51,193 nt of DNA from a virus. Position 1 is the first letter of the stretch. Each line of letters begins with the position of its first letter. The DNA lies in IMG/VR virus record IMGVR_UViG_3300030099_004204, positions 1-51,193 of that record; one strand, written 5' to 3'. This document shows, in pieces, positions 9,743 to 37,352 of the stretch. The notes beneath the pieces are model-generated. The model saw only the letters and a list, made by a program, of their open reading frames with translations, did no database searches and had not been told where the DNA came from. The translations under genes were made by a program, and so were the position numbers.

Positions 9743-12178
9743 ATGAAAGATGTTACAATAGACATTGCATCTGTAGGTTTTCCTAGTCAGTTTGTTTCAG
9801 ATGCAGAAAAAGCAACTGATGAATTTGGATTACAAATAGGTCAAGCTATTCAATACGAATGGTTCAAAAAAGACGGAAACCAATGTAGGTATTACAATCA
9901 GTGGAGAGACTTCCATAGACTACGATTGTATGCTAGGGGTGAGCAATCAATTGCAAAGTATAAAAACGAAATTGCAGTTGATGGCGATTTATCATATTTG
10001 AATTTAGATTGGACACCCGTTCCGATATTACCAAAGTTTGTTGATATTGTTGTTAATGGAATGCAAGACCGTGAGTTCAAAGTTAAAGCTTACGCACAGG
10101 ATGCATTATCACAAGCCAAACGTAATAAGTATCAGGACATGATAGAAGGTCAAATGGCAGCTAAAGAAGTCTTGACTACTATTCAAGATGAAACAGGTAT
10201 CAATCCATTTATAATGGACCCTAATGATTTACCAGCATCTGATGAAGAGCTTTCTTTATACATGAATCTTAATTACAAACCTGCAATTGAAATAGCAGAA
10301 GAGGAAGCTATTGATACTATGTTTGAAGAAAACCATTACCAAGACATAAGAAAACAATTGGATTATGATGCTATGGTTATTGGTATGTCTGTGGCAAAAC
10401 ATGAATTTTTACCAGGAGCTGGTGTTGAAATATCTTATGTTGACCCTGCTAATGTAGTTTACAGTTATACTGAAGACCCACACTTTAAAGATTGTTTTTA
10501 TTGGGGAGAAATAAAAACATTGCCTGTTTCTGAACTTTTAAAAATAGACCCCACCCTTACAAATGCAGATTTAGAAGAAATATCAAAATACAGTCAAAGC
10601 TGGTATGATTATTATAATGTAGCTCAGTTTTATGAGAATGATATTTTTTATAGAGACACTTGCACTTTAATGTACTTTAATTATAAAACCACTAAAAAGA
10701 TGGTTTATAAAAAAAGAATAATGGATGGCGGTGGCTCAAAAATGATTGAAAAAGATGACACTTTCAATCCACCAGAAGAAATGCTTGAAGAGGGCAACTT
10801 TGAAAAAATAGAAAAAACTATTGATGTATGGTATAACGGTATTATGGTTATGGGTACAAACATTATTTTAAAATGGGAGTTAGCGAAAAACATGGTGCGC
10901 CCTAAGTCATCTTCACAGCATGCCTTACCTAATTATGTAGCAGTTGCGCCTAGAATGTACAAAGGTGTGATTGAATCTCTTGTTAGAAGAATGATACCAT
11001 TTGCTGATTTAATACAAATTACACATTTGAAATTACAACAAGTCATAGCTCGTACTGTTCCTGATGGTGTTTATATAGATGCAGATGGGTTGAATGAAGT
11101 TGATTTAGGTACTGGAGCTGCGTATGACCCATCTGACGCATTAAGATTATATTTTCAAACAGGTAGTGTTGTGGGTAGAAGTTATACGCAAGACGGAGAG
11201 TTTAATAATGCTCGTGTACCCATACAGCAGCTTACAAGCAGCTCTGGCGCTTCTAAGACACAAATGCTTATTGCTAACTACAACCACTATCTTGATATGA
11301 TAAGGGCTGTAACAGGCTTAAATGAAGCGAGAGACGGAACTACGCCTGACCCTGATTCCTTGGTAGGCATTCAAAAACTAGCTGCTCTTAATTCCAATAC
11401 AGCTACAAGACATATATTAGATGGTTCGCTGTATATATATAAAACTTTAGCTGAAGCACTTACATATCGAGTTGCTGATATATTAGAGTATTCTGATTTC
11501 AAAGAAGATTTTATAAATAAAATTGGCAAATATAATGTAAGTATATTGTCTCAAATAGCTGATTTATATATATATGACTTTGGTGTTTTTATTGAGTTGT
11601 CTCCTGACGAAGAGCAAAAAGCAATGTTAGAGCAGAACATACAAATGGCTTTATCTAAACAAGATATAAACCTTGAAGATGCTATTGATATTAGAGAAAT
11701 AAAAAATTTAAAACTAGCTAATCAGTTATTAAAAGTTAAAAGACTTGCTAAACAAGAACGTGATGAAAAGATGGCTATGCAGAAGCAAGCAATGGTTGCG
11801 CAGCAACAAATAAAATCACAAGAACTAGCAGCTCAAGTAGCTCTTCAGAAAATACAATTAGAGACTGAATCTAAAATGAAAGTAAAACAAGCTGAAATAG
11901 CTTTTGAAATTGAAAAGAATAAAAATGAGGCAGCATTAAAATCTCAACTTATGGAGCAAGAGTTTAATTATAATGTTAGATTAAGAGATGTCAGCGAGCA
12001 ATCTTTAGCATTTAGAGAAGGTGCTAGGGAACAGGCTAAAAGCGATAGAATTAGTCAACAAAACTCTGAGCAAAGTAGATTAATAGCTCAAAGAAAAAAT
12101 AATCTTCCGCCTCAAAACTTTGAATCAAATGAAGACAGTTTAGATGGTTTTGATTTATCAGAATTTGAACCAAGATAA
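9743..12178 (+). CDS. Portal protein
   Basis: 811 residues, larger than most portals but similar to podovirus-type portals. The N-terminal core contains YNQWRDFHRLRLYARGEQ, then WTPVPILPKFVDIVVNGMQD, then repeated aromatic/acidic portal-core segments. Residues about 660-790 form a long Gln/Lys/Glu/Ala coiled coil (crown/barrel-like). It is flanked by TerL immediately upstream and a scaffold-like gene downstream, the classical order. It forms the dodecameric DNA entry channel at the capsid vertex. Confidence 0.8.
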   Translation: MKDVTIDIASVGFPSQFVSDAEKATDEFGLQIGQAIQYEWFKKDGNQCRYYNQWRDFHRLRLYARGEQSIAKYKNEIAVDGDLSYLNLDWTPVPILPKFVDIVVNGMQDREFKVKAYAQDALSQAKRNKYQDMIEGQMAAKEVLTTIQDETGINPFIMDPNDLPASDEELSLYMNLNYKPAIEIAEEEAIDTMFEENHYQDIRKQLDYDAMVIGMSVAKHEFLPGAGVEISYVDPANVVYSYTEDPHFKDCFYWGEIKTLPVSELLKIDPTLTNADLEEISKYSQSWYDYYNVAQFYENDIFYRDTCTLMYFNYKTTKKMVYKKRIMDGGGSKMIEKDDTFNPPEEMLEEGNFEKIEKTIDVWYNGIMVMGTNIILKWELAKNMVRPKSSSQHALPNYVAVAPRMYKGVIESLVRRMIPFADLIQITHLKLQQVIARTVPDGVYIDADGLNEVDLGTGAAYDPSDALRLYFQTGSVVGRSYTQDGEFNNARVPIQQLTSSSGASKTQMLIANYNHYLDMIRAVTGLNEARDGTTPDPDSLVGIQKLAALNSNTATRHILDGSLYIYKTLAEALTYRVADILEYSDFKEDFINKIGKYNVSILSQIADLYIYDFGVFIELSPDEEQKAMLEQNIQMALSKQDINLEDAIDIREIKNLKLANQLLKVKRLAKQERDEKMAMQKQAMVAQQQIKSQELAAQVALQKIQLETESKMKVKQAEIAFEIEKNKNEAALKSQLMEQEFNYNVRLRDVSEQSLAFREGAREQAKSDRISQQNSEQSRLIAQRKNNLPPQNFESNEDSLDGFDLSEFEPR

Positions 12179-12232: not shown

Positions 12233-13378
12233 ATGGAATTAAAAGTAAGAGCAGTTGAAGCTGTTGAAGAAAAATCTGTACAACAGGTTGAGCAAGAGCT
12301 TCTTGACAAGCATGAAGAAAAAATTAACGACCAACAAAAAGAGTCGGAAGAAGTAAAAGAAGTCGCAGTAGAAAGCGAAGAAGTAAAACAGGAAGAAAGT
12401 GTCGTAGAAGACACTCCTGAAAAGACAGAAGAAGTGGTTGAAAAACCCGTGGAGCTGTCTGAAGAAGACGTTCTTTCATATATTGGAAAAAGGTATGGTA
12501 GGGAAATTAGTTCACTTGATGAATTAAATACAGCAAGAGAGGAAGCAGAGGAGCTACCTAAAGATGTTGCAGCCTACTTTAAATACAAAAAAGAAACAGG
12601 TAGAGGCATTGAAGATTATGCTAGATTGCAGAAAGATTTTAGTGCTATGTCACCTGATTCTTTGCTAAGAGAGTATATAACTGTTACTGAAGGTGAAGGT
12701 TTAGACCCTGAAGATATTGATTCTTTAATGGAAGATTATTCTTACACTGAAGATGATGATGAGACAGCAATTAAAAAAATTAAATTAGCAAAGAAAAAAA
12801 CTATTGCCAAAGCAAAAAAATTCTTTAATGAACAAAAAGAATTATATAAGCAGCCCCTTGAGTCGAGTACGGCTGCTAATCCTCAAGTTCAAGAAGAAAT
12901 ACAAGCATATAGGCAATATTTAGAATCTGTTAAAACTCAACAACAAGAGGCAGAGGTAAAACGAAATTGGTTTACAAAAGAAACTGATAAAATTTTTACT
13001 GATAAATTCAAAGGTTTTGATTTTACAATAGGTGAAAATACTTTTACTTACAGTCCTGTGGATGCGGCAACTCTAAGACAAAGCCAAGATAATGTTATGA
13101 ATTTTATAAATAAATTTATTGACGATAAAGGTTTACTTAAAGATGCAGCTGGATACCACCGAGCTTTAGCAATAGCGATGAATCCCGATAAGTTTGCTCA
13201 ATTTTTTTATGAGCAAGGCAAATCGAATGCTACTGAAGATGTTATGCGTAAAACAAAAAATATAGAAATGACAGAACGCAAAGCACCAGAAGTAACAAAT
13301 AAAGGAGGATTTCGTGTTAAAGCAATCAACCCTGATTCGGGTCGAGGCTTAAAAATAAGAAGTATAACTAAAAAATAA
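12233..13378 (+). CDS. Scaffold-like/head assembly protein
   Basis: 381 residues. Residues about 1-90 are extremely acidic and Gln/Val-rich (repeated EEVKE and EEVVEKPVE blocks), the middle is charged and helical, and the C-terminus is basic (KGGFRVKAINPDSGRG then SITKK). Position between portal and major capsid, high charge and lack of a catalytic motif are typical of a scaffolding protein whose basic C-terminal tail docks on the capsid protein. No protease domain is visible. The family is not recognised. Confidence 0.6.
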   Translation: MELKVRAVEAVEEKSVQQVEQELLDKHEEKINDQQKESEEVKEVAVESEEVKQEESVVEDTPEKTEEVVEKPVELSEEDVLSYIGKRYGREISSLDELNTAREEAEELPKDVAAYFKYKKETGRGIEDYARLQKDFSAMSPDSLLREYITVTEGEGLDPEDIDSLMEDYSYTEDDDETAIKKIKLAKKKTIAKAKKFFNEQKELYKQPLESSTAANPQVQEEIQAYRQYLESVKTQQQEAEVKRNWFTKETDKIFTDKFKGFDFTIGENTFTYSPVDAATLRQSQDNVMNFINKFIDDKGLLKDAAGYHRALAIAMNPDKFAQFFYEQGKSNATEDVMRKTKNIEMTERKAPEVTNKGGFRVKAINPDSGRGLKIRSITKK

Positions 13379-13390
13379 AAATTATTTAAA

Positions 13391-14812
13391 ATGCCAGGAA
13401 GTGTACAAGCAAACCCTACGTTTGCATTACAGCCTAGCGCAGAACAAGTTGCGCTGGCTACTAATTATATAACAAACTTTGATTTCTTAAATCAGTATTT
13501 ACCTGATACATATGAAAAGGAGTTTGAGCGATATGGAAATCGCACGATAGCATCTTTCCTACGAATGGTAGGAGCAGAGATGCCATCTAATTCTGACCTT
13601 ATTAAATGGGCAGAACAAGGAAGATTACACACTAAATACGTTAATTGTGCTTCAGCAGGTAATGCTGGTGATGATACGGCTACAATTACAGTAAATGATA
13701 CATTAGTACCAGGTACTGGAAGTATAGCTATTCGTGTGGGTCAAACTGTAGTTATCTCAGATAACGCAGGGTCAGGAGAAAACAAAGCAATAGTTACTGC
13801 TGTAAATACAGGAGCAGGTACTTTTGATGTTGCATATTACGAAGCGGCTGGACAAGTAGGTGCAGCTGGTCTTACAAGAACAGTCTTTATTTATGGTTCT
13901 GAATTTAAAAAAGGAACAGTTGGGATGACAGGCTCTTTAGAAGCTGATGATGTTATTTTTGATAACTCACCAATTATCATAAAAGACAAATATGCTGTTA
14001 ATGGTTCTGACATGGCACAAATAGGTTGGATTGAAATTACAACTGAAAATGGTGCAAGTGGTTATTTATGGTATATGAAATCTGAGCATGAAACAAGACT
14101 TAGGTTTGACGACTATTTAGAAACTGCAATGATTGAAGCTGTACCAGCTGAAGCAAATTCAGGAGCTATCGCAGCTACAGGTGATGTAGGTAACAAAGGT
14201 TCAAAAGGTATTTTCTTTGAAGTAGAAAACAGAGGAAATGTTTGGGCTGGAGGAAACCCTTCTACTTTAGCCGACTTTGATTCAATTATTTCAAGATTAG
14301 ACAAGCAAGGTTCTATTGAGGAAAATGTGATTTTCGTTGATAGAGATTTTAGTTTTGATATAGATGATATGTTAGCTGCTCAAAACTCTTATGGAGCTGG
14401 TGGAACATCTTATGGTTTATTTGACAATGATAAAGATATGGCATTAAACTTAGGTTTCACTGGATTTAGAAGAGGTTATGATTTCTACAAATCAGACTGG
14501 AAATATTTAAATGACCCAACTATGCGTGGTGGTTTACCAACTGGTGCTAATTCAGGAAGAATAAATGGTCTTCTTGTACCAGCAGGTTCTACTACAGTGT
14601 ATGACCAAATTTTAGGTAAGAACGCTAAGAGACCATTCTTACACGTTCGTTATAGAGCTTCTGAAACAGAAGACAGAAGGTACAAAACTTGGATTACAGG
14701 TTCTGCTGGAGGTGCAATGACTTCAAGCTTAGATGCTATGGAGGTTCACTTCTTATCAGAAAGAGCTGTGTGTACTTTAGGTGCAAACAACTTCTTTATT
14801 TTCCAAGAGTAG
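13391..14812 (+). CDS. Major capsid protein
   Basis: 473 residues. The N-terminus has no signal peptide; RYGNRTIASFLRMVGAEMP at about 45-65 resembles the conserved start of capsid proteins in marine Bacteroidota phages (from memory). A Gly/Ala/Thr-rich beta insertion follows at about 90-150 (DTATITVNDTL). The C-terminal third carries LGFTGFRRGYDFYKSDW and HVRYRASETEDRRYK. Evidence is mainly position (after portal and scaffold), size, and a strong intrinsic terminator directly downstream, as expected for a highly expressed gene. HK97 fold is presumed, not shown. Confidence 0.75.
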   Translation: MPGSVQANPTFALQPSAEQVALATNYITNFDFLNQYLPDTYEKEFERYGNRTIASFLRMVGAEMPSNSDLIKWAEQGRLHTKYVNCASAGNAGDDTATITVNDTLVPGTGSIAIRVGQTVVISDNAGSGENKAIVTAVNTGAGTFDVAYYEAAGQVGAAGLTRTVFIYGSEFKKGTVGMTGSLEADDVIFDNSPIIIKDKYAVNGSDMAQIGWIEITTENGASGYLWYMKSEHETRLRFDDYLETAMIEAVPAEANSGAIAATGDVGNKGSKGIFFEVENRGNVWAGGNPSTLADFDSIISRLDKQGSIEENVIFVDRDFSFDIDDMLAAQNSYGAGGTSYGLFDNDKDMALNLGFTGFRRGYDFYKSDWKYLNDPTMRGGLPTGANSGRINGLLVPAGSTTVYDQILGKNAKRPFLHVRYRASETEDRRYKTWITGSAGGAMTSSLDAMEVHFLSERAVCTLGANNFFIFQE

Positions 14813-17583: not shown

Positions 17584-20500
17584 TGGCAAACATTCAAAGA
17601 AATTTTATACGAGGGCGAATGAATAAAAGCCTTGATGAAAGGCTTGTACCAAACGGCGAATATATTGACGCTCTTAATGTAAGGTTGGGTTCAACTGAAG
17701 GTTCTGAAATAGGTTCAGTTGAAAATTCAAAAGGTAATACTTCCTTGACAACTTTGATGTTTAATGAAATAGAAGTAAGCAATAATGCTAGATGTATTGG
17801 TGCTTTTGAGGACGGTGCTAATGAAACATTATATTGGTTTGTGCATGACCCGTCTTTTCCATTAGGCTCTACAAGTAAATTAGACCTTATAGTTTCATAT
17901 AATACAAATGACAACTCTTTAACTTATCACGTTATAAGTATTGATGATGGAACAAATCTAAATACTACATTAAACTTTAGCCCACATCATTTAATTACAG
18001 GTATAAATTTAGTGGACAATGAATTGTTATTTTTTACTGATAATTTAAATCCTCCACGTTACATAAATGTTAATAGACGATACAGCGTACCTGTAAATAA
18101 TTTAGATAATTTTAGCGCTGAGTCTTTGCTTGTAATTAAAAGACCACCTATTGAAGCACCAACTTTTCAGGCTTTAAATATTGTAGGACAACAAGATGAC
18201 TTTTTAGAAGATAGGTTTATATGTTTTGCTTATAGATATAAATATGCTGATAATCAATATTCAGCGACTTCACAATTTAGCAAAGAAGCATTTAGCCCAG
18301 GGTCATTTAATTTTAGTTATAACAGCTATTTAAATGAAGGTATGAAAAATACCAAAAATGCTGCTATTATTACATTTAATTCAGGTAGCTCGTTAGTTCA
18401 GGGAATACAATTATTATTCAAAGAATCAACTACAAACAATATAAAAGTAATTGAATATTTAGATAAGAACAATTTAGGATATTCCGATAACACAAACTAC
18501 ACTTACACTTTTGATAATAGTCAAATATTTACACTTCTTCCTGATTCTGAATTATTGCGTTTATTTGACAATGTACCTCTTGTAGCTAAAGCTCAAACTT
18601 TGATGGGCAATAGGTTAATGTATGGAAACTATAAAGAAGGTTATGATTTAAAAGATAAGTTTGACCAGGATATAAAGCTTGAATTTTCTGCTGCTTTAAA
18701 CTCTACAGTTATTGATAGTTCTTCATTATTAGATTCTACAGGCGGTGGTAATTATACGTTCGGTCCTACACCTGTTACTGTGCCTAACTCTGTTGTTTAT
18801 TTTGATTTATCAAATCAAAACGGAACTACTTTAGAGCTTACTGCTGGTTCAAGTATAACGCTTGACTTTACTATTTTACATAGTCAATTTACTGGCACAA
18901 CTCCTACAGCACAAACAGGAAGTACAACATTAGTTTTTGACTATACATTACCTATAGATTTTAATAATGTATATGATTTGGCAACAAGCACAGATTTTAT
19001 AGAAAAAATAGGTACATCTTCTAATATACAATCTGTAACGAATGCATGTAATGGCTCTACTCTTACTGACCAAGTAAATTGTGCTTTACCTGCCACTCTT
19101 GGAACTTACACAAAAACTGCAAGTGGTATCAACGCTACTGGAGAACCAATAAATATTATTGCTTCACCTGCTAGTAATACCATTGGTCTACAACTAATAG
19201 CTATGAATTATGTAGATGGAGGTAATAACTCATACGAGTTTTATGCGGTAAGTGCAGCTACGGCTACATTTGGCACAGCAAGTTCACCAAGTAGTTTACA
19301 TAGTAATAGAGGCTATGAAATTGGTATTGTGTATATGGATAATTTTAACAGAGCTTCAACTGCATTAGTTAGTCCTAACAATTCTGTTTACATACCATGC
19401 TCAAACTCAATTAACAAAAATGATATTAGAGTTACAATACCACAACAACAGCTAGCTCCTAGTTGGGCAACAAGGTATAAGCTTGTTTTAAAACCATCAG
19501 AATCTACATACGAAACTATATTTACTAATATATATTATGAAGACCCAGCTAGCAATGCAACCTACTTTTTACTTGAAGGAGAAAACGCTAATAAAGTAGA
19601 AGAAGGAGATAGATACTTTGTAAAATCAGACAGTAATGGTCCGATTCTAAGATGTGTTGAAGCTACTGTGTTAGAAAAAAAATCTCAAACTGCAAACTTT
19701 ATTACAGTTTATGATAGTGCGCAAAACCAAATACAAGTTCCTGCTGGAACTTATATGAAAATAAATCCTAGTAATTTTTCTACTACTGTTATTGAAAACG
19801 ATGTAGTTGCTGAAGGCAGTCAAACAGTTCAAGAAAACTCTTCTGGTGATTATCCAATACTTGCATACCCTATTAATTTACCACCACCTTCTGGTACAGG
19901 TAATTATGTAGATTACACTGTGCCTGCTGGAAGTAGAATTAATATAAGTATAAGACAAGAAAGGCTTGGACCTAATCAAGGTGATGGAAACTGCGAAAAA
20001 AGAATTAACACTATAGATGTAGAGCTTATAGCCTCACAAGATTATGCAAATATGTCTGAATGGTTTTATGGTGATAACGTGTCTACTGTATTTACAAACA
20101 GAGCAGTAAGCGAAGTCGGTGGTAACGGTAGTCCTGTTGTAAATACATGGGAAGCCGCAACTAGCGGCACTGGAGCTCCAGATACCTCATCTCCTAGTTC
20201 AGATATTAGCACTGCTGTTGACACGAATTACTACAGAACATATAGAAACAACACTACTAATGAATTATTCTTATTAGTAACAGGAACTGTTAGGTGCGGT
20301 GGTGTTGCATCAAGAGCTAAAAGGCGTAGCTCTGTCACAGTAGATATTGAAGTGTATCGTTCAGGCTCTGTGATAGCATTTGAAACTCAACCTGCTGATG
20401 CATCACCAAGCATATGGTATGAAAATCATTTATCTTTTCCTATTAGCGCTGATGGTATGCATACAGGTAACGTGCAAACACAAACATCTAGTCAATCAGC

Positions 20501-22841
20501 TATAGTAGATTCTGAGTTTTCAAATTGTTACACGTTTGGAAATGGCGTGGAAAGTTATAAAATACTAGACTCTTTAACAGGCAAAACTAAAAATTTTGGA
20601 GAACGAGTTACTTCAACTTCTAATATGGATTATAAAGAAGAGCATCGTTTTGCTGATATTACTTATAGTGGCGTGTTTAATGATGAGTCAAATGTTAATA
20701 AGCTTAACGAGTTTAATTTAGGTTTGTTAAATTTTAAACCACTAGAAGAATCCTACGGTCCGATACAGCTTTTAGATGGCAGAAAAACAGACATACTTAC
20801 ACTTCAAGAAGATAAAATTTCTTATGTTTTAACAAAGAAAAATTTATTAAGTGACTCAACAGGTGGAGGAGCAGTTACTTCTGTTCCTGAAGTATTAGGA
20901 ACGCAAATAGCTAGAACTGAAGAATACGGTATAAGCGAAAACCCTGAAAGTTACTCTACTTACGGTCCTAATAAATATTTTACAGACGCAAAAAGAGGCG
21001 CTGTAATAAATCTTATAGGTAGCGAAATGAGTAATGAACAGCTTCGAGTAATATCAGAAGCTGGCATGCGTGGTTGGTTTAGAGATTTATTTATTAGAAC
21101 ATTTAACACACAAAAACTTGGAGGGTTTGACCCTTACATGAATGAGTATGTTTTGCACTCAAATGTACAATTACCACAACCATCTACTGATTGTTTTCAA
21201 TGTAACACCAATAGAGACTTAACAGTTTTGCCAGGGCAAACTTTTAGTTACTGTGTTGATTTAGAAAATTTATTAGGAATTGTAGATATAGATTTTGTAA
21301 TACCCTTTCAAGGTTTCGACAATATAGTTACTGAGCTCAACTCAAACACAGTAACTGAAACTAATAGTAATGAGATTGTAGCTGAAACCACTATTAGTGG
21401 CGTAGGATTTACAATAACAGCTGTTTACAATGGTGTTTCACATACCACAGGTGTTGTTTATCAAGACGGAACTTTATCATTTAATAAAAATAGCGTTACA
21501 GCGGATAAGGTGCAAATAAATGTTTCTCACGATAGCACATCAGCACAAACAATAGATATAACAACAGGATGTCCACAAGCAGCAAGCATGACGGTATTTA
21601 ATGTAGCTGTCACCAGTAATGCTGATGCATCGCAAAGAATTACAAATGTTTATAGCTGGACTGATGGTAGCTTTACTTCTAATGAACACTCATCTTTAGT
21701 AACCTTTTCAAGTAGCAACACCAATCCTATAGTATCTCAATATACACAAGTAAATGGCTCTCAAGGAGGAGGTATAATTCCAGGAGATGGAGCAACAGTT
21801 TCTATTATAAGTAGAAAAAACTCAGGAGACAATTTTGTTTTTGATGCATCAAAAAATAAACTTAGATATTTAAGAACTTCAACTTTTTATGACAATAATG
21901 CTACAGATATAAATGCTTTATTGTCTGCATCGACTAATGTTACTCCTATATCAAGTCAGACTAATCCAAACCAATTTGTTGCAAACTTTACTTTGCCAGC
22001 AGGTGGTAGCTTTTTGTATATAATTTGGGATTACAGAAAATCAAACTCTCAAAAACTTTGTTATTCATCAACTAGCACTACTGATGCGTGTACAGGTTGT
22101 ACATTTCCACCTGTTCCCGCACCTACATCTCCTGTGCCAGTAACACCTGTGTATAGATGGCTTATCGAATCAGGAAGTGGTAGCACAACTAGCCCAACGA
22201 CTTGTCCAAATGCTTCAGTGCCTATATATAGCACTGCAAGTTCGTTTGCGACTACATTTGCAAATAGCACTGTTTTTTATACTGATGCTGGACTTACAAC
22301 GCTTTTTCAGGGAGGAAATAATTATTTTGGTGTAAGAGAACCAAATCAAGGTTATGGTCAGTCACAAGGTATTATGAGAATGACTAATTTAGGAACAGCT
22401 TCTAATATAGACACTGCTGGAGTTTGTAATCCAAATCCCACGCCTGTGCCTGTGCCTGTACCTGTGCCAGCGCCAGTATCACCCACGCCAGTGCCTGTAC
22501 CTACAACACCTGTTCCAGCGCCCGCAGCGAGCACTACAGCATTTACTATGACAAGCATAAATACTTATTGGTCTAGCCAAATTGATGCTTGTAACAATGG
22601 TCCGTCAGCATCTATGCAAACTTACTATCATAACGGAGTAGGCTCATGTCCTCAAGGAGCACCTGGTAACCAAAATATAATTTATATAGATGCGGCAGGC
22701 ACAACAAAACTATCAGATGTAGTCAATACAGCTGGAAGATATTATTTTATACCATCTAGTGTTTGCTTTGGAATAGGAAACGGACAGATTATACAAATTG
22801 ACCCAAATAATGGAATCATAAACACAAGAATAAATTGTTAA
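17583..22841 (+). CDS. Giant tail protein, nozzle-like N-terminus with C-terminal Pro-rich appendage modules
   Basis: 1752 residues. The N-terminus (RNFIRGRMNKSLDERLVPNG, then DALNVRLGSTEGSEIG) resembles the opening of podovirus tail-nozzle (T7 gp12-like) proteins. The body is beta-rich and Asn/Thr/Ser-rich, as in a propeller or fibre. The C-terminus changes character: a short Pro-rich linker at about 1508-1523, a Cys-containing module with VFYTDAGLTTLFQGGNNYFG, a long Pro-Val/Ala/Thr linker at about 1617-1650, and a final module with IYIDAAGTTKL. Related modules and linkers appear in the genes at 22843 and 27292. Likely function: distal tail tube with surface-exposed appendages. Confidence 0.65.
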   Translation: MANIQRNFIRGRMNKSLDERLVPNGEYIDALNVRLGSTEGSEIGSVENSKGNTSLTTLMFNEIEVSNNARCIGAFEDGANETLYWFVHDPSFPLGSTSKLDLIVSYNTNDNSLTYHVISIDDGTNLNTTLNFSPHHLITGINLVDNELLFFTDNLNPPRYINVNRRYSVPVNNLDNFSAESLLVIKRPPIEAPTFQALNIVGQQDDFLEDRFICFAYRYKYADNQYSATSQFSKEAFSPGSFNFSYNSYLNEGMKNTKNAAIITFNSGSSLVQGIQLLFKESTTNNIKVIEYLDKNNLGYSDNTNYTYTFDNSQIFTLLPDSELLRLFDNVPLVAKAQTLMGNRLMYGNYKEGYDLKDKFDQDIKLEFSAALNSTVIDSSSLLDSTGGGNYTFGPTPVTVPNSVVYFDLSNQNGTTLELTAGSSITLDFTILHSQFTGTTPTAQTGSTTLVFDYTLPIDFNNVYDLATSTDFIEKIGTSSNIQSVTNACNGSTLTDQVNCALPATLGTYTKTASGINATGEPINIIASPASNTIGLQLIAMNYVDGGNNSYEFYAVSAATATFGTASSPSSLHSNRGYEIGIVYMDNFNRASTALVSPNNSVYIPCSNSINKNDIRVTIPQQQLAPSWATRYKLVLKPSESTYETIFTNIYYEDPASNATYFLLEGENANKVEEGDRYFVKSDSNGPILRCVEATVLEKKSQTANFITVYDSAQNQIQVPAGTYMKINPSNFSTTVIENDVVAEGSQTVQENSSGDYPILAYPINLPPPSGTGNYVDYTVPAGSRINISIRQERLGPNQGDGNCEKRINTIDVELIASQDYANMSEWFYGDNVSTVFTNRAVSEVGGNGSPVVNTWEAATSGTGAPDTSSPSSDISTAVDTNYYRTYRNNTTNELFLLVTGTVRCGGVASRAKRRSSVTVDIEVYRSGSVIAFETQPADASPSIWYENHLSFPISADGMHTGNVQTQTSSQSAIVDSEFSNCYTFGNGVESYKILDSLTGKTKNFGERVTSTSNMDYKEEHRFADITYSGVFNDESNVNKLNEFNLGLLNFKPLEESYGPIQLLDGRKTDILTLQEDKISYVLTKKNLLSDSTGGGAVTSVPEVLGTQIARTEEYGISENPESYSTYGPNKYFTDAKRGAVINLIGSEMSNEQLRVISEAGMRGWFRDLFIRTFNTQKLGGFDPYMNEYVLHSNVQLPQPSTDCFQCNTNRDLTVLPGQTFSYCVDLENLLGIVDIDFVIPFQGFDNIVTELNSNTVTETNSNEIVAETTISGVGFTITAVYNGVSHTTGVVYQDGTLSFNKNSVTADKVQINVSHDSTSAQTIDITTGCPQAASMTVFNVAVTSNADASQRITNVYSWTDGSFTSNEHSSLVTFSSSNTNPIVSQYTQVNGSQGGGIIPGDGATVSIISRKNSGDNFVFDASKNKLRYLRTSTFYDNNATDINALLSASTNVTPISSQTNPNQFVANFTLPAGGSFLYIIWDYRKSNSQKLCYSSTSTTDACTGCTFPPVPAPTSPVPVTPVYRWLIESGSGSTTSPTTCPNASVPIYSTASSFATTFANSTVFYTDAGLTTLFQGGNNYFGVREPNQGYGQSQGIMRMTNLGTASNIDTAGVCNPNPTPVPVPVPVPAPVSPTPVPVPTTPVPAPAASTTAFTMTSINTYWSSQIDACNNGPSASMQTYYHNGVGSCPQGAPGNQNIIYIDAAGTTKLSDVVNTAGRYYFIPSSVCFGIGNGQIIQIDPNNGIINTRINC

Positions 22842-24111: not shown

Positions 24112-24202
24112 ATCACCTGATAAAGGTAAAACTATTTACAGAAGAGAATTTGGTAATTACGATAAAAAAGAATTAATCAAGTCGCCTAATAGTGAAAAAT
24201 AG
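24080..24202 (+). CDS. Micro-protein between oxygenase and fucosyltransferase genes
   Basis: A 40-residue frame from TTG 24080 to TAG 24200-24202, overlapping the oxygenase end by 32 bases and the fucosyltransferase start by 11 bases. The sequence reads KKVYIYESPDKGKTIYRREF then GNYDKKELIK, a compact protein-like pattern that I recall as a recurring short protein in marine phages. An alternative ATG frame at 24107 encodes only 22 unremarkable residues. The start codon is uncertain. Function unknown; its tight packing in the enzyme cassette suggests co-expression. Confidence 0.45.
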   Translation: MRNTKKVYIYESPDKGKTIYRREFGNYDKKELIKSPNSEK

Positions 24203-25256
24203 GTACATATCTTTTGATTGGTGGTGGGGTGGTTTTAATAATATTCGGATGTGCTATGAAATGGTTGGTGCTATGTCATATGTGTCAGGCAGAAAAATTA
24301 TATTACCACCTCCAGGATATTGTTTGTTTTTATCAGAACATCATGACAAAAAAACTTTTTGGGATATATGGGAAATATTAGATAAAAAGGCTTTTACTGA
24401 TAATTTTGATTGCGTTGATTATCAAGATACTGAGCTTATAAAATATTCTTCAGATAAACAAAATTACGAAGGCATCTGTAATGATATTAAATGTATTTTA
24501 TTTAACGATGAAGACATTAATTGGGGTCCTCAAAAGTTTATAGGTAAAGGTTTAATATACCACAGCATCGAAGACATAAATCATTTTAACAATTTTAATT
24601 GTGATAATAGAGAGTTTTTGTATGATATTATGTGCGATGATGAGATTATACATTTTCCAAGAAATTTATTAGGGCATTTTGGTTATCACGTCTATCCTCC
24701 AAACGATATGGCACGTAGAGTTATACAGCAAAAAATAAAAAGAGGTGTAAAGTTTCAGGATAAATACATTCAAAAAGCAAGAGAAATTATGCAAGGAGAC
24801 TATGATGCTGTGCATATACGTAGAGGCGATTTCAAATATACACAAACTCAATGGACAGAGGAGATGTATGATAATCTTGAATCGCTTCTTGATGTAAATG
24901 TAAGAAAATCAGTACCTTTATACATAGCAACTGATGAACCTGACTTGTCTATGTTTGATTTTTTAAAAACAAAATATAATACTATATTTTTAAAAAACAT
25001 AACACAGGTTGAAATGGCTGAAGGATTGGTTCTTGACACTTTAATATGCGCTAATGCATATAATTTTTTTGGTTCAAGGATGTCAACCTTTTCAGATTAC
25101 ATTAATATAATTAGAGGATATAATAATAAAATCGATAATCATAGAAAGTCTTTAAATTTTGAAAGACCGAAAATAAAATACAATAAATACCCCTGGGAAG
25201 TTGAGCCTTATAATTGGCAAGACTTGTGGGGTGAATTATATTATGGCAAAATTTAA
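24192..25256 (+). CDS. GDP-fucose O-fucosyltransferase-like glycosyltransferase
   Basis: 354 residues from GTG 24192. Three O-fucosyltransferase (GT65/GT68-type, PF10250-like) signatures are visible: an N-terminal WWWGGFNNIRM (nucleotide-binding G-G-x-x-N-x-R), a central YDAVHIRRGDF at about 205-214 (the H-x-R-R-G-D donor motif), and a C-terminal FFGSRMSTFSDY at about 291-302 (S-x-F-S). No membrane anchor is present, so it acts in the cytoplasm. It would transfer fucose or a related sugar to a protein or glycan acceptor. It overlaps the carbamoyltransferase gene by 14 bases. Alpha-1,2-fucosyltransferase-type acting on glycan is the alternative. Confidence 0.65.
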   Translation: MKNRYISFDWWWGGFNNIRMCYEMVGAMSYVSGRKIILPPPGYCLFLSEHHDKKTFWDIWEILDKKAFTDNFDCVDYQDTELIKYSSDKQNYEGICNDIKCILFNDEDINWGPQKFIGKGLIYHSIEDINHFNNFNCDNREFLYDIMCDDEIIHFPRNLLGHFGYHVYPPNDMARRVIQQKIKRGVKFQDKYIQKAREIMQGDYDAVHIRRGDFKYTQTQWTEEMYDNLESLLDVNVRKSVPLYIATDEPDLSMFDFLKTKYNTIFLKNITQVEMAEGLVLDTLICANAYNFFGSRMSTFSDYINIIRGYNNKIDNHRKSLNFERPKIKYNKYPWEVEPYNWQDLWGELYYGKI

Positions 25257-26703
25257 TTTAGGGATACACGGGTCTCATAACGCTGCAATAGCAATTTCAT
25301 ATGGTGGAGATATTTTAGAAGTGGTTGAGCTTGAAAGATGGGTGCAAGTTAAAAACGCTGCATTTTTTTATTATCACCCTATACTTAATCCTATAGAAGT
25401 TCTTAATGAAATACTAGATTATTTTGATTTTAAATATCAAGCAAAGCGTTATGATTTTGCAATGATAAACTCATTCCCACAAGAACATTACAAAGATTTA
25501 CGTGCAGATAACGTGGTATATGTGCCACACCATGAAGCTCATGCTTGTAATGTTATGTATCATTCTAGTGCTTTAGAATCACTTATAGTTTCATTTGACG
25601 GTGGTTCAGATAATGGACATTTTAATATTTATTTAGGAACAAAAGGACAACCCTTACAATTAATACACCAATCAAATAAAGACCTTTGCGTGCCCTATGC
25701 AGCTTTAGGTCATTATATGGGTGATATAGTTAGAGAAAGAGATTGGTGGTTTGGTAATCTTGCTTATGCTGGAAAGGCTATGGGGCTCTCTTCTTATGGT
25801 AAAAGAGATGACGAGCTTTTTAATTATGTAACCCAGTTATATGACAGAAGTGTTACAAACAAAGTTGATGAAACGCATAATAACTGGGCAGAAATTTTTT
25901 GTGGTTGTCATCAAAAAGAACAAAAATCAAAAGATTTAGCATATGCCAACCAATATATGTTTGAGAAAAACTTTGCTGATATTGTGCTTCCGTTTAAATT
26001 TCAATATCCAGATAGAGAGTTGCAGTTTACAGGTGGTGGTGCAATGAATATATTAAATAACACTACTTACAAGGCTTTTGTGTCTCCAAACTCTGATGAC
26101 AGAGGTATTGCATTAGGCTGTTTGCTTAGTCTTATAAAACCAATGAATCCTGTTGATAGCACCTACTTGGGTTCAGAGCCCTATGATGATATGCCAGAGG
26201 CAAAAGAGATTACAATAAAACAAGTTAGAGACATGCTCGACCAAGATAAAATTATTGGGTTGATACAAGGCAGGGCAGAACACGGAGCAAGAGCTTTAGG
26301 TAATCGTTCTATATTGTGTATACCAAAACAAGGCGTAAAAGACAGGCTTAACGCAGACGTAAAAAAAAGAGAATGGTTTCGACCTTTTGCTGCTGTGTGT
26401 AGAGAAGAAGATGCTAATTTATTTTTTAAAGCTTACGGACTACACCGATGGATGACACATAATGTAAAAGTAAATACTGATGCTTTTCCTGCTATTACAC
26501 ACGTAGATAAAACCTGTAGATTACAAACTGTAACTGAAAATCAAAATAAATTTTTATATGATTTATTACAATACCATCCTGTATTATTAAATACTTCTTT
26601 TAATATTCAAGGTAAACCCATACTAAATACATATAAAGAAGCAATGTGGATGAAAAACAATACAGGTGTTGATGAAATAATAACCGATAAATATATATTA
26701 TAA
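25243..26703 (+). CDS. NodU/CmcH-type carbamoyltransferase
   Basis: 486 residues from ATG 25243 (a TTG 14 codons upstream is less likely). The N-terminal domain starts LGIHGSHNAAIAI and has VPHHEAHACNVMY (96-106) and SFDGGSDNGHFNIY (117-130), the ASKHA-fold catalytic signature of carbamoyl-phosphate-dependent O-carbamoyltransferases. The C-terminal Carbam_trans_C domain is marked by GRAEHGARALGNRSIL and WFRPFAAVCREE. It should place a carbamoyl group on a hydroxyl of a sugar or similar acceptor. Neighbours are a fucosyltransferase-like and two oxygenase-like genes, so the acceptor could be a protein-bound glycan. Its TAA overlaps the next ATG (TAATG). Confidence 0.85.
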   Translation: MAKFNLGIHGSHNAAIAISYGGDILEVVELERWVQVKNAAFFYYHPILNPIEVLNEILDYFDFKYQAKRYDFAMINSFPQEHYKDLRADNVVYVPHHEAHACNVMYHSSALESLIVSFDGGSDNGHFNIYLGTKGQPLQLIHQSNKDLCVPYAALGHYMGDIVRERDWWFGNLAYAGKAMGLSSYGKRDDELFNYVTQLYDRSVTNKVDETHNNWAEIFCGCHQKEQKSKDLAYANQYMFEKNFADIVLPFKFQYPDRELQFTGGGAMNILNNTTYKAFVSPNSDDRGIALGCLLSLIKPMNPVDSTYLGSEPYDDMPEAKEITIKQVRDMLDQDKIIGLIQGRAEHGARALGNRSILCIPKQGVKDRLNADVKKREWFRPFAAVCREEDANLFFKAYGLHRWMTHNVKVNTDAFPAITHVDKTCRLQTVTENQNKFLYDLLQYHPVLLNTSFNIQGKPILNTYKEAMWMKNNTGVDEIITDKYIL

Positions 26704-32279: not shown

Positions 32280-35200
32280 ATGGAAGAAATTCAAAAGCTT
32301 TATGATGTATTAGTTAGAGATGGTTATTATACAAAAAGCTTAGATGATTTTATTGTACAGTACCAAGACCCTGCTTACGTTGATAAAGTATTTGAAGTTG
32401 TTACAAGAGATGGCTTGTATACAAAAGACAGAGAAACTTTTGATACACAATTTTCAATAAAAAAAAAAGAGAACGAACAACCGCAAGAAGAACCAGATAC
32501 GGTTTCAGAATTGGAGCTTGGTTTTTCGGAATTACCAAGTGGTGAAAAAGATACTTTGCTTGAAAGAACATTTGGTAAAAACTTTGTAACAGATTATTTT
32601 GGAGACATTTATCGTGCAGGCGCACAAGGTTTTGCGCAGGGCGCTACAGTAGATGATGCTTTAAAACTTTTTGCGTCTGGTAAAGATGCAGACAGTGAAG
32701 ACATACAAGATTATATAGCTGCTGTTCAAAACATGGAAAGCTATCAGCCTTCAGACGAAATGAAGGAATTTGATAGGATATATAGACAAGAAGGAGGAGG
32801 CTTGATGGGTTTCATCAAAGGTCTTGCAAAAACAAGAGCACAAGTTATACCACAAATTTTTACCTCATCTATGATTGCTATGTTTAACAAAGGTTCTTTG
32901 GCAGCAGGAGCAGTAGGAGGAGTTGGAGCGGGGTTAGCTACTGGTGGTCTCGGAGCTATACCAGGTGCGATAGCAGGTTTGTCTGGTGCATTAGAAACAG
33001 GAGTTTCATTTACAGAATTTTTAAAAGAGGAGATTGGAGATAAGCCATTTACTGAAGAAAACATACGTGAAGTATTAGAAGACCCTGGTAAATTAGCTAA
33101 AATACGAGCTAGAGCAGGAGCTAGAGGCGTTTCAATAGCGGCATTAGATGCAATAGCAGGTGGGGTAGCCTCTAAAGTAGGAGCAAAGTTTGGTAAAAAT
33201 TTGAGCAAGGCTGGAGTAACATTAACTGCTGGAGCTATTGAAGGTGTTGGTGGTGGTACTGGTGAAGTAGTCGCTCGTGCATTAGCAGACCAAGAAATGG
33301 ATGTAGCTGAAATAGGTTTTGAAGCTGTAGCTGGAACTGCAACTGCCCCGTATACTGTAGGCGCAGCACTATATAATATGCCAAAATATCAAATAGGGGG
33401 TAAAAAACTAACGAGAAAAGATTTTATAAAAACTATTAATGAATCTACACCAAAGCAAATAATTGAAATAGCAAATAGTAAAGCCCCTGTAGAAGTAAAT
33501 AATGATAAAGAAGCATTAGCTATATACAATAATGCATATCAAGAGGCTCAAATAAAAGTTAAAACTGAAGAGGTTGCGCCCAATATAAATGAAGAAGAAT
33601 TAAATAAAGTCGTTGAATTAACAAGAAGAAAAGAATTTTTAGAAAACAATGCAAGTGAGGTAGCAAAAGCCGAACTTTCAGATATTAACAAACAAATTAA
33701 AGATATAACAGATGCCGTTCGTAAGCGAAGCTCAGAGGAGGTGGTTCTACAAGAACAAACCGAGGTGGGCACCGATATGGGAGAAAGAGACTCCACCAGG
33801 GAAGTTGCCAGAAAGACTACACCCGAAGAAAATCAAGAGACCGAAGTTCAAGAAGGTGAGAATATCCAAGCTCAAGAGACAAATCAGGAGGAAGTAGCTG
33901 TAGAGCTCACCGAAGAACAACAGGATGAAGTAAGTGATTTAGAATATACCCTAAACATAACAGAAGAGACTACAGAAACTACACCTGATGATATTCCTAC
34001 TTTACCTAGAGATTTAACAATTGAACAAGTAGTAGAACAAGGAAGACAGAATGGTTTTTCTGATGCGTCTATAAGAGCTGTATTGCTTAAAAGAAAAAAC
34101 CCACAACAAAATCGAAGGTATAGCGCTGCTGAAGTAAATGAAGCCATGCAGATTGATTTAGAGAAAAACGAAGTATTGCCTGCTGCTATACAAAATATTG
34201 AGGGTGGTGTTGAAAAGGGTAGACAATTGCTTAGAGAAGTCAATGCACAAATTGAATCATTTAAAAATAAAACACAGAAAGAAACTAAATCTCCAGCTAC
34301 CAATGCTCAAATAAGAGAAAAAGCTTTAGAGTTTTTGAGAGCTAATGAAATATTCAAAAGCTTAAATGAAAATGAACAACTAGAAGTTACTTTGGCTTTT
34401 GATAAAACTTTACAAACCAGAGCCAATCCTAGAGTACAACAAGAAATTTCAAGGATTAAAAGTTTAGTGAGAGGTTTTAAACGAGGTGTAAAAGACTTGA
34501 GAAGTGCACAAATCCAGTTGAAAAATTTTATTAGAAATAATTTAAAACAAGCTGACAACTTGCTTCCACTTATAACAGGCGTGAAAAGCGTAAAAGATTT
34601 ATCAGCACAAGCAGAGCAAGTAATTAAAAGAGCAGAAAGACAAAGAGCACAACAGAAAAAATCTTTAATCAAAGAGATTGAAAAATTTATTAATAAAAAA
34701 TCAAAAGGCAGAAAAACTGCCAGTAGAAAAACTAGGGCTGCAACTTTGGATGCACAAGGAAAAGATTTTTTTACAGAACTTAAACGGATATTTAAACTTG
34801 ATGCAAAACAACTTGATAAATTAAGAGAAGAGATAAATGAAAATGAAACAGAATATAACAAGGCTGTTCTTAAAGAGGCTAGAGGTGAAAAGTTAGATAG
34901 AAAAGATACCCAACTGTTAGATACTAAATTAGCTTTTGACTTGATAGCAGGTATAGAAAATAAATCAATAGAAGAAATTGAAGTTTTATTTGAAGATTTA
35001 AAAACTGGCGCAAAAGAATCTTTGAATCGTTTAAATAGAGCTAAAGATATACAAGCGCAAAGACAAGAAAGAATTAGTAATACAGCGCAAGCAACGGTAA
35101 AAAAGCTATACGGATTTTTATTTGGTGAAGATGGTAAACCTTTAACTAAAGCTGAAATAAAGCAAAAAAGGAAACAGATGTTAAGGAGTTTTGGAAAATT

Positions 35201-37352
35201 AAAAATATTTGAAGGAACTAAAGCTTTCGCAAAAATATATGGTCCGCTGCTCACAATTAATGCATTTAGAGCAATAAGAAATAGTTTAGGTCATCTGGGT
35301 TCAATAACAGAAATATTAGACAGATATGAGCCAGGATTTTTTAAGGAACAGCTTTACGATAACGTAAATGTTATGGAGGAAAAATCTTTGCAAGGTAAGT
35401 ATCGTCAAATTGATGAATTAAATAAAATTGCAAATACAATATCTGGAATAAAAAAAGGGTATAACGAAATACTAGGTAAATTCAAAAAAACAGATATAGA
35501 AATTATAGTTAATGGAAAAAAAGAAATTTATTCTGATGATAATTTGCTTAGAATATATGCTCTTAGTTTGAATGAAACGCAAAGACAAAAACTAAACAAG
35601 CAAGGTTTTACTGATAAAGTTTTAAGTGAAATAGAAAAAAAATTAGACCCGTCTTTAATTGAGTTTGCTGATAAAGTAGTAGAGTATTTTAGCACTAGAT
35701 ATTATGAAAGCGTTAATGATGTTTATTCTTCAGTTAATAATATAAATCTAAGTTATGTAGATAATTATTTTCCAACTCGTACAGTTTCTGACCAAGTAAA
35801 TAAAGAATGGTTTAACGAGTCTGCATTTGATAAAATATTTGCAGCAGATTCTTCACCAGCTTTTAGGGATAGAACAGATACACAGGGCAAGGTTGACGTA
35901 GATGACATGTTTACTTTTACAAATGTCATGATGGACCACATTACATCTATGGAAAGATATAAAGCTTTTGCACAAGGAGTCAGAGATATAAATACCATTA
36001 TGACCGACCCTGCTGTAAATATTTTAATGCAACAAACAGGAACAGAAAAAGTAATTAGACAAAGTTTAAATTCTATTTTTAATCCTACATATGGTGTGGA
36101 GGAAAATTTATCTTTGTTTAGCGGGTTATTTAATCAATTTACAGGATACGCTTTAAGTTTTAAAGTGATACAAATTCCAAAACAAATCTCATCTTTTGTA
36201 AATGCTTTTGAAGAATATCAATACTTCAAAGGAAAAAACACACCAGGTATAGACCACATAGCTTTTATGGTTGACACGTTAAAAGTATTAGGCTCTTTAT
36301 TCACAAAAGACTCAGCTTATAAAAAAGCTTTAGACATTTCAGCTACATTTAGAGAAAGAGTGGAGCGTGGATTAGAAGGAGATATATATGGGTTAGAAAC
36401 TGGTGGTACATTAAACCTTAAACAAGTTCAAGCATTTAAAGAAATTCGTAAAAAATTTAGAAAACTCAAAGGTGCGCCAACAGTTATAGGAGATATCGGT
36501 GGTGTGTTAGGTTATATGATTAATTACAACAGAAATATAGCTAATGGCATGAGTGAGGCTGACGCTTTAAAAGCTTTTAATAATTATAATGCAACTCAGC
36601 AAAGTAGAAGAGGCTCTGATAAAATAGCTTTGCAAAGAAGTAAAAGTCAATTATTAAGAACTGTAACTATGTTTGGTAGTACGGCTTTTTTACAAATGAA
36701 CAAAGCGGCTACAGGTCTATCTGCTATAATGAAAAGAATAAGTAAGGGTCAATTTAAAAAGGCAGTTGTAAGTAAAGAAGCAAGAGCTGTAGCTTTAAAT
36801 TTAGGTGTCGCCAATCTTTTATTTGTGTTTGCAGCAAATTTTACCAAGTATGCTTTAGGAGATGATGAAGACAAAGAAGAGGTTGCATCAAGATTAAGAG
36901 ATGCGTTATATGGATTAAACTTACTATATCAAGTTCCGCTTTTTGGTGATGGTATTGAAAGTATGATGAGGTCAGCTAGAGGACAAAAACCTAGAACAGG
37001 AGGAGGTGTAAATCCTTTTTTATCCATAGCAAACGAATTAAGAAAATCGCCTTTTACAAAAGAAACCGCATTTCAAAAATTTAAACCTTTTATAGAGATA
37101 GGTTTGGGTACACGATTAGACCCTTTTGTAGGTTTATATAATATAATCGAGAAAGGTGAATTTGAAGAAGATGATGTATTGGATTTAATAGGTATAAGCA
37201 GTTCATATCGACCTAACCCTGACAAGCGTTTGACTAAGACACAATTAAAAGAATATTTGCCTGAGCTTTATGATGAGTTGTATGGTCCAGGGTCGGCTTA
37301 TGATGAAATGAAAAAAGAAATGAGAAAAATAAAAAACAGCCTCAAAAAATAA
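32280..37352 (+). CDS. Giant internal virion/DNA ejection protein (gp16-like position)
   Basis: 1690 residues. It opens with two related short repeats (KLYDVLVRDGYYTKSLDDF at about 5-23 and VFEVVTRDGLYTKDRETF at about 38-55). Residues about 185-255 and 270-350 are Gly/Ala-rich hydrophobic (GAVGGVGAGLATGGLGAIPG), suited to crossing a membrane. A low-complexity acidic/Gln/Thr linker at about 450-560 coincides with an overprinted reading frame. Residues about 640-1000 are long charged helices. A second glycine/hydrophobic part near 1400-1530 ends before a basic C-terminus. No lysozyme or transglycosylase motif is clear. Likely ejected to form a DNA channel. Confidence 0.55.
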   Translation: MEEIQKLYDVLVRDGYYTKSLDDFIVQYQDPAYVDKVFEVVTRDGLYTKDRETFDTQFSIKKKENEQPQEEPDTVSELELGFSELPSGEKDTLLERTFGKNFVTDYFGDIYRAGAQGFAQGATVDDALKLFASGKDADSEDIQDYIAAVQNMESYQPSDEMKEFDRIYRQEGGGLMGFIKGLAKTRAQVIPQIFTSSMIAMFNKGSLAAGAVGGVGAGLATGGLGAIPGAIAGLSGALETGVSFTEFLKEEIGDKPFTEENIREVLEDPGKLAKIRARAGARGVSIAALDAIAGGVASKVGAKFGKNLSKAGVTLTAGAIEGVGGGTGEVVARALADQEMDVAEIGFEAVAGTATAPYTVGAALYNMPKYQIGGKKLTRKDFIKTINESTPKQIIEIANSKAPVEVNNDKEALAIYNNAYQEAQIKVKTEEVAPNINEEELNKVVELTRRKEFLENNASEVAKAELSDINKQIKDITDAVRKRSSEEVVLQEQTEVGTDMGERDSTREVARKTTPEENQETEVQEGENIQAQETNQEEVAVELTEEQQDEVSDLEYTLNITEETTETTPDDIPTLPRDLTIEQVVEQGRQNGFSDASIRAVLLKRKNPQQNRRYSAAEVNEAMQIDLEKNEVLPAAIQNIEGGVEKGRQLLREVNAQIESFKNKTQKETKSPATNAQIREKALEFLRANEIFKSLNENEQLEVTLAFDKTLQTRANPRVQQEISRIKSLVRGFKRGVKDLRSAQIQLKNFIRNNLKQADNLLPLITGVKSVKDLSAQAEQVIKRAERQRAQQKKSLIKEIEKFINKKSKGRKTASRKTRAATLDAQGKDFFTELKRIFKLDAKQLDKLREEINENETEYNKAVLKEARGEKLDRKDTQLLDTKLAFDLIAGIENKSIEEIEVLFEDLKTGAKESLNRLNRAKDIQAQRQERISNTAQATVKKLYGFLFGEDGKPLTKAEIKQKRKQMLRSFGKLKIFEGTKAFAKIYGPLLTINAFRAIRNSLGHLGSITEILDRYEPGFFKEQLYDNVNVMEEKSLQGKYRQIDELNKIANTISGIKKGYNEILGKFKKTDIEIIVNGKKEIYSDDNLLRIYALSLNETQRQKLNKQGFTDKVLSEIEKKLDPSLIEFADKVVEYFSTRYYESVNDVYSSVNNINLSYVDNYFPTRTVSDQVNKEWFNESAFDKIFAADSSPAFRDRTDTQGKVDVDDMFTFTNVMMDHITSMERYKAFAQGVRDINTIMTDPAVNILMQQTGTEKVIRQSLNSIFNPTYGVEENLSLFSGLFNQFTGYALSFKVIQIPKQISSFVNAFEEYQYFKGKNTPGIDHIAFMVDTLKVLGSLFTKDSAYKKALDISATFRERVERGLEGDIYGLETGGTLNLKQVQAFKEIRKKFRKLKGAPTVIGDIGGVLGYMINYNRNIANGMSEADALKAFNNYNATQQSRRGSDKIALQRSKSQLLRTVTMFGSTAFLQMNKAATGLSAIMKRISKGQFKKAVVSKEARAVALNLGVANLLFVFAANFTKYALGDDEDKEEVASRLRDALYGLNLLYQVPLFGDGIESMMRSARGQKPRTGGGVNPFLSIANELRKSPFTKETAFQKFKPFIEIGLGTRLDPFVGLYNIIEKGEFEEDDVLDLIGISSSYRPNPDKRLTKTQLKEYLPELYDELYGPGSAYDEMKKEMRKIKNSLKK
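33712..33897 (+). CDS. Overprinted small basic phage protein in +1 frame inside ejection gene
   Basis: A 61-residue frame (ATG 33712, TAG 33895-33897) wholly inside the 1690-residue gene, in another frame of the same strand. It begins MPFVSEAQRRWFYKNKP, continues WEKETPPGKLPERLHP and ends in a Lys/Arg-rich tail. This closely matches, from memory, a recurrent small phage protein (S-E-x-Q-R-R then K-P, W-x-K-E-T-P, K-L-P-E) normally encoded as a separate gene. My hand count gives about 48% G+C here against about 30% nearby. In the main frame the same bases encode only low-complexity acidic sequence. So this frame looks like the older, selected one. Expression is unproven. Confidence 0.55.
   Translation: MPFVSEAQRRWFYKNKPRWAPIWEKETPPGKLPERLHPKKIKRPKFKKVRISKLKRQIRRK

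Follow-up and report, generated by a model that had tools for sequence, protein, structure and literature searches.

The stretch analysed here, called the window, covers positions 1 to 51,193 of the IMG/VR virus record IMGVR_UViG_3300030099_004204 (51193 bases). Its gene order is podovirus-like: tail fibre and terminase genes are followed by the portal and head genes and then by genes of 258, 644 and 1690 codons, the giant being the last (Table 1). The window also contains a 1752-codon ORF (17583-22841) and, in the late region, a gene for a Nol-like carbamoyltransferase (25201-26703; PHROG 1601, E 3.8e-99), which is adjoined by a weak glycosyltransferase match (24192-25256). A 61-residue ORF lies wholly within the giant ORF, one base out of phase with it (+1). 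A preliminary description, made from the letters of the window, had claimed that a small phage gene is overprinted inside the giant gene, and this was confirmed, since the +1 ORF is complete and has homologues with up to 71% identity. Over the same bases the main frame encodes an acidic, low-complexity peptide (DAVRKRSSEEVVLQEQTEVGTDMGERDSTREVARKTTPEENQETEVQEGEN), as had also been described. An earlier hand count of 90 G/C in the 186 bases of the small ORF (about 48%) was matched by the computed G+C of 0.49, compared to 0.34 for the window.

Table 1. Features of the window that bear on the nested gene, in order of position
Feature	Positions	Strand	Remarks
Portal gene	9743..12178	+	46% identity to the portal of a phage whose scaffold-like gene holds the small gene
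Scaffold-like gene, between portal and capsid genes	12233..13378	+	No nested gene here; 34% identity to the L135 host ORF; homologue is the alternative host elsewhere
Virion structural protein, PHROG 13704	13391..14812	+	By position the probable major capsid protein; 49% identity to its counterpart in a scaffold-nested phage
Giant host ORF	32280..37352	+	1690 aa; runs across the small gene in a different frame; phrog_32588 E 2e-78, residues 34-535
Giant N-terminal module	32280..33713	+	Ends at the nested-gene start; present also in giants without the nested gene
Nested-gene start region	33690..33711	+	A-rich; no Shine-Dalgarno motif
Main-frame acidic linker	33711..33896	+	Encoded by the same bases as the nested gene; DAVRKRSSEEVVLQEQTEVGTDMGERDS...
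Nested small gene	33712..33897	+	61 aa; MPFVSEAQRRWFYKNKPRWAPIWEKETPPGKLPERLHPKK...; MPFxSxAQRR... family, PHROG 1375-like
Giant C-terminal module	34008..37349	+	Common to other nested giants and the tandem giant L050

We searched for relatives of the giant at the DNA and protein levels. Its DNA had no match among the INPHARED phages, and its protein had one distant match there, MW202828.1, to the C-terminal module. No relative was confirmed in IMG/VR when the giant was used as a single-protein query. A Pfam scan gave no family above the cut-off, the sole PHROG match was PHROG 32588, and no homology to a known T7-type ejection protein was found with either resource. The large gene had been named an ejection protein gene; this name comes from gene order, by which the giant is a probable internal virion (ejection) protein, and the family that it matches has no assigned function. 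In some giants of other phages that lack the nested gene (L262, L272, L274, L278 and L284), the motif HELLH, HEILH or HEVLH appears soon after the N-terminal module. These motifs are metallopeptidase-like by eye, and the giants thus look like multi-domain proteins.

A search with the 61-residue sequence against phage proteins, which the preliminary description had proposed, found 15 relatives in IMG/VR with 43-71% identity (best E 2e-18). When an alignment of nested copies served as the query in a further IMG/VR search, 185 relatives were confirmed and 80 of them were kept. The core of the family reads MPF[KRV]SxAQRRWMYxNxPxxAKxWEKETPxGxxLPxR and is followed by a basic tail. This core appears to be shared with PHROG 1375, a family with no assigned function. 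The PHROG 1375 profile matched the window copy only with an E of 0.076 (residues 3-43) and its relatives with E values of 4.7e-5 to 1e-4, including L078 (4.7e-5) and L052 (9.6e-5), and the window copy aligns with these two over its core. The small protein had been described as resembling a widespread small phage protein that is normally encoded separately; the family is real, and it is often encoded by a separate gene. Pfam and NCBIfam scans showed no family for the small protein. The AlphaFold2 model of the small protein contained three helices (residues 6-15, 20-26 and 45-60) with a mean pLDDT of 87.7. Solved structures gave chance-level matches only when compared by sequence. A fold search found none in the PDB and no match with an E below 0.001 in the PDB or a viral library, whose best matches (E 2.4e-3 to 2.1e-2) included uncharacterised phage proteins.

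Among the first 95 loci, about half carried the small gene nested in a much longer ORF of the same strand and the rest carried it as a separate gene, many of the relatives being separate genes without a long ORF in another frame. Altogether, nesting was seen in 79 distinct protein variants; each time the longer ORF was unrelated and the small gene was in its +1 frame, and phase +1 was found in 40 of the 40 nested copies analysed. The main frame of the nested copies encodes a recurrent peptide, DAIQEPSTEKVDVQEQTxDGxxVGxGDT, and the flanks are often unrelated between phages. In 11 relatives, referred to as tandem, the small gene begins 10 bases or less from the stop codon of the giant. Bacterial MAG-binned contigs also carry nested copies; the form in an Aureispira bin is divergent. 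Two apparently nested cases, L058 and L059, were excluded: their high-G+C DNA leaves several frames open, so that the calls are probably false. One could suppose that the ORF of the window is a chance open frame with a chance resemblance. A lone open frame of 61 codons is indeed weak evidence, with a simulated chance of 0.14 for the main peptide of the window; nothing was found in favour of this explanation, and it is refuted by the homology, the invariant start and the constant phase over dozens of lineages.

To sample the giants without regard to the small gene, we used the last 200 residues of the giant N-terminal module as the query, which yielded 79 giants. The small gene was nested in 58 of them, followed directly after the giant stop in 3, and was not found nearby in 15; the remaining 3 were cut. 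The preliminary description had suggested looking for relatives of the large protein that lack the segment, and these 15 are such relatives. All 58 nested copies of this blind sample were in phase +1. Wherever the N-terminal module was recognisable, the nested gene lay near its end. At the junctions that were read in giants without the small gene, the next module follows the N-terminal module directly, and such a linker is absent. Six of the 15 records without a giant-nested copy have the small gene nested elsewhere, again in phase +1, in a scaffold-like gene; one showed a weak match and eight showed no small gene, fragments and true absence being indistinguishable in these records. Copies were counted by searching with the small-protein alignment: each of 30 records had one copy, as did 10 of 18 more, so that the 40 matching records have one copy each. 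The window likewise has one.

The scaffold-like host ORFs of the six records are 398-435 codons long, 40-62% identical to the L135 host ORF and 32-35% identical to the scaffold-like gene of the window. In L135, L161 and L095, the ORF that hosts the small gene adjoins portal-like and capsid-like genes, and it is from the position between them that we call this alternative host scaffold-like. The host ORFs of L135, L095, L096 and L161 had no PHROG match, and the scaffold-like gene of the window matched phrog_16786, which has no assigned function; homology to a known scaffold family was thus not found in PHROG. The window phage is related to the scaffold-nested phages, as seen in the portal, scaffold-like and capsid-like proteins (identities in Table 1). 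A single-protein search, which shows nothing by itself, did not find the giant in the scaffold-nested L135, L161, L132 and L095.

Both frames of the overlap bear marks of selection. In 22 nested pairs, mostly from separate lineages, the differences at positions 1, 2 and 3 of the small codons numbered 104, 73 and 191. Within the overlap, the third position of the main frame varied least, whereas in the coding flanks it usually varies most. The mean protein identity of 780 pairs over the first 40 residues was 0.61 for the small frame and 0.41 for the main frame. At every identity level compared, nested pairs showed less synonymous change than tandem pairs (0.21 vs 0.46 at 80-97% identity). The main-equivalent frame contained 2-9 stops in tandem copies and, with one exception, 1-10 in the other copies examined as separate, compared to none in nested copies by definition of the class. 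The one stop-free 'separate' copy, L096, proved to be nested in a scaffold-like gene itself. When synonymous codons were simulated at the usage of the low-G+C giants, the main frame was open by chance with a probability of 0.0005 per copy on average. The locus thus combines a complete ORF with its own start, inside an ORF of another frame, with a selection signature in both frames, as overlapping genes do.

The claim that the small frame is ancestral and the more constrained of the two is supported, because the small protein has relatives outside the overlap, its protein identity is the higher one and the differences fall at its third codon positions. We infer that the linker was overprinted on the small frame. 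The preliminary description had left two options, dual coding and a gene captured out of frame. If the captured gene were dead, the small ORF would have been pasted out of frame and would now serve only as a linker of the large protein. The giants in which the N-terminal module runs straight into the next module agree with this, as they show that the segment is dispensable to the architecture. A dead gene, however, would hardly vary chiefly at its own third positions while the third position of the main frame stays the least variable, and its start, length and motif would hardly persist across dozens of lineages, with one copy in every matching record. We therefore regard a dead capture as very improbable and favour dual coding, given that across many lineages the small frame has kept its ATG, its length and its purifying pattern.

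The genetic code offers a reason for the constant phase. In this phase, each main codon consists of the third base of a small codon and two bases of the next small codon. Since all three stop codons begin with T, removal of T from the small third positions removes every stop from the main frame, and this is always possible by synonymous change. T indeed occupied 3% of the small third positions in nested copies and 21% in tandem copies, whereas G occupied 52% and 28%, respectively. G at the third positions turns AAR/AGR runs (Lys, Arg) into GAA/GAG (Glu) in the main frame, and this would explain both why a basic protein lies over an acidic linker and why the G+C is raised. The raised G+C noted in the preliminary description is real, but inheritance from the small gene alone does not explain it, as the tandem low-G+C homologues have a G+C of about 0.33-0.47; the rise is due chiefly to the third positions, which in nested copies are rich in G and nearly devoid of T. 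This code-based account of the acidic linker and the G+C fits the composition found, and we infer that it may hold for the nested copies. The rule that stops need T at the third positions of the inner gene also predicts where further cases should lie.

We examined the start of the small frame with a DNA probe that lacked the start codon. It found 71 stretches, most of them nested; four (L129, L151, L157 and L177) had a stop in the main-equivalent frame. All stretches that could be read through the start begin with MPF, and one was cut at a contig end. An ATG start was present in 58 of the 58 nested copies of the blind set, two of which begin one codon earlier; the diverged nested start of L254 and L255, MSPFKSKKQ, is one codon earlier than the rest. 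GGAG, GAGG or AGGA precedes the nested ATG in nine copies, all from higher-G+C phages. In the window phage, 34 of the 35 other genes have no Shine-Dalgarno-like motif before the start and 1 of the 35 has one, so the lack of a motif before the nested ATG is normal there, and the phage seems to use non-SD initiation. Initiation without a Shine-Dalgarno motif is documented in some bacteria, for example Bacteroidetes (PMC6847099).

Programmed +1 frameshifting would provide a different route to the small frame: a slip at the junction would fuse the N-terminal module to the small protein, which would then have no start of its own. Such a mechanism would suit a nested gene that is always in the same phase and, where the N-terminal module is recognised, always near the end of that module. 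However, a frameshift product does not need the ATG, which is invariant, and the same protein is encoded as an independent cistron elsewhere. In several nested copies, including that of the window, a stop of the small frame lies 0-1 codons upstream of the ATG, leaving little room for a slip site, and the Shine-Dalgarno-like motifs of the nine higher-G+C copies also speak against frameshifting, which we consider very unlikely. Internal initiation is the best reading of how the small protein would be made.

It appears that the same DNA is kept as two proteins and that the small gene has changed its host gene at least once. A portable dual-coding cassette is suggested by three findings taken together: phase +1 throughout the blind sample, a second host gene, and one copy in each matching record. 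We give a probability of about 0.85 to the dual-coding reading as a whole, as judged from sequence comparisons; in its best version, a cassette with internal initiation would have changed its host gene. One frame would be a complete small gene with its own ATG, initiated internally on the late mRNA; the other, one base off, would supply a large virion protein with an acidic, unstructured linker. The stop-free second frame could have evolved by synonymous changes alone, and the cassette could then enter, in the same phase, any ORF able to accommodate an acidic linker, and that ORF would stay intact. A portable stop-free cassette would account both for the phase that never varies and for the switch between host genes.

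As to how the two nests arose, we somewhat favour movement of the cassette itself over two nestings, its stop-free second frame having let it land in the same phase in unrelated virion genes. L003 and L004 have small proteins that are identical over the first 40 residues and related C-terminal modules, although their upstream flanks are unrelated, which indicates that recombination occurs at this spot. Codon choice at identical residues was shared between giant- and scaffold-nested copies (0.597 observed vs 0.505 expected from group codon usage) as strongly as within the giant-nested copies (0.604 vs 0.531) and more than between giant-nested and tandem copies (0.424 vs 0.392). This sharing could also come from a common main-frame constraint rather than from transfer. 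Dual coding without a mobile cassette, in which the small gene was nested separately in the giant and the scaffold-like gene, each time in the one phase that is easily kept open, is opposed by the codon sharing and by the recombination at the spot. On the other side, the phase alone is compatible with convergence because every stop in this phase is removable by synonymous change, and the scaffold-nested form is one clade (100/100) in a tree of the scaffold-like protein; on the whole, separate nesting seems unlikely. Three changes are needed on the same tree, and one clade of all giant-nested forms is rejected (p 0.009), since tandem phages stand among the giant-nested members. The scaffold-like gene may itself recombine, which limits what the tree tells about the direction of the moves.

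Gene E within gene D of phage phiX174 is a same-strand overprinted gene pair, and the pair described here likewise encodes two proteins by one stretch in two frames of one strand. Unlike the usual overprinted pairs, the gene occurs here in two unrelated host genes among related phages. Overprinting is usually told as the rise of a new small protein inside an old gene, whereas here the small gene appears to be old and the linker of its large neighbour new. The family entry of PHROG 1375 is silent on nesting, whereas the nested copies described here lie out of frame within unrelated host genes. In the literature searched, no report of this arrangement was found; overlapping viral genes have been reviewed in PMC8227390. 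What the present data add to the earlier observation of the nested ORF is that the phase never varied in a blind sample, that a second gene also acts as host and that each matching record has one copy. With its many natural replicates, this one system allows tests of how overlapping genes originate and how portable they are. Nested copies would tend to be overlooked by gene finders that accept a single gene per stretch.

The neighbours of the separate copies give some indication of function. The small gene lies beside the portal gene in L054, L068 and probably L009, and between the terminase and portal genes in L052. In phage 023Pt_psg01 it is one of the small genes that separate a head-tail connector gene from a head protein gene, and other copies lie elsewhere, as in L078, where it precedes a ribonucleotide reductase gene. 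From these neighbours and the nesting in two virion-region genes, we tentatively propose that the small protein may be a basic late protein with a role in assembling the head, in packaging or in ejection. T7 gp6.7 and gp7.3 are small virion proteins encoded among head and ejection genes. They offer a possible functional analogy as small proteins amid such genes, with no relation in sequence or fold to the small protein shown. The core of the small protein also forms the N-terminus of longer in-frame ORFs in L011 (6001-7362), L060 (8001-12485) and L107 (8001-8714), which are possibly natural in-frame fusions of the small-protein domain.
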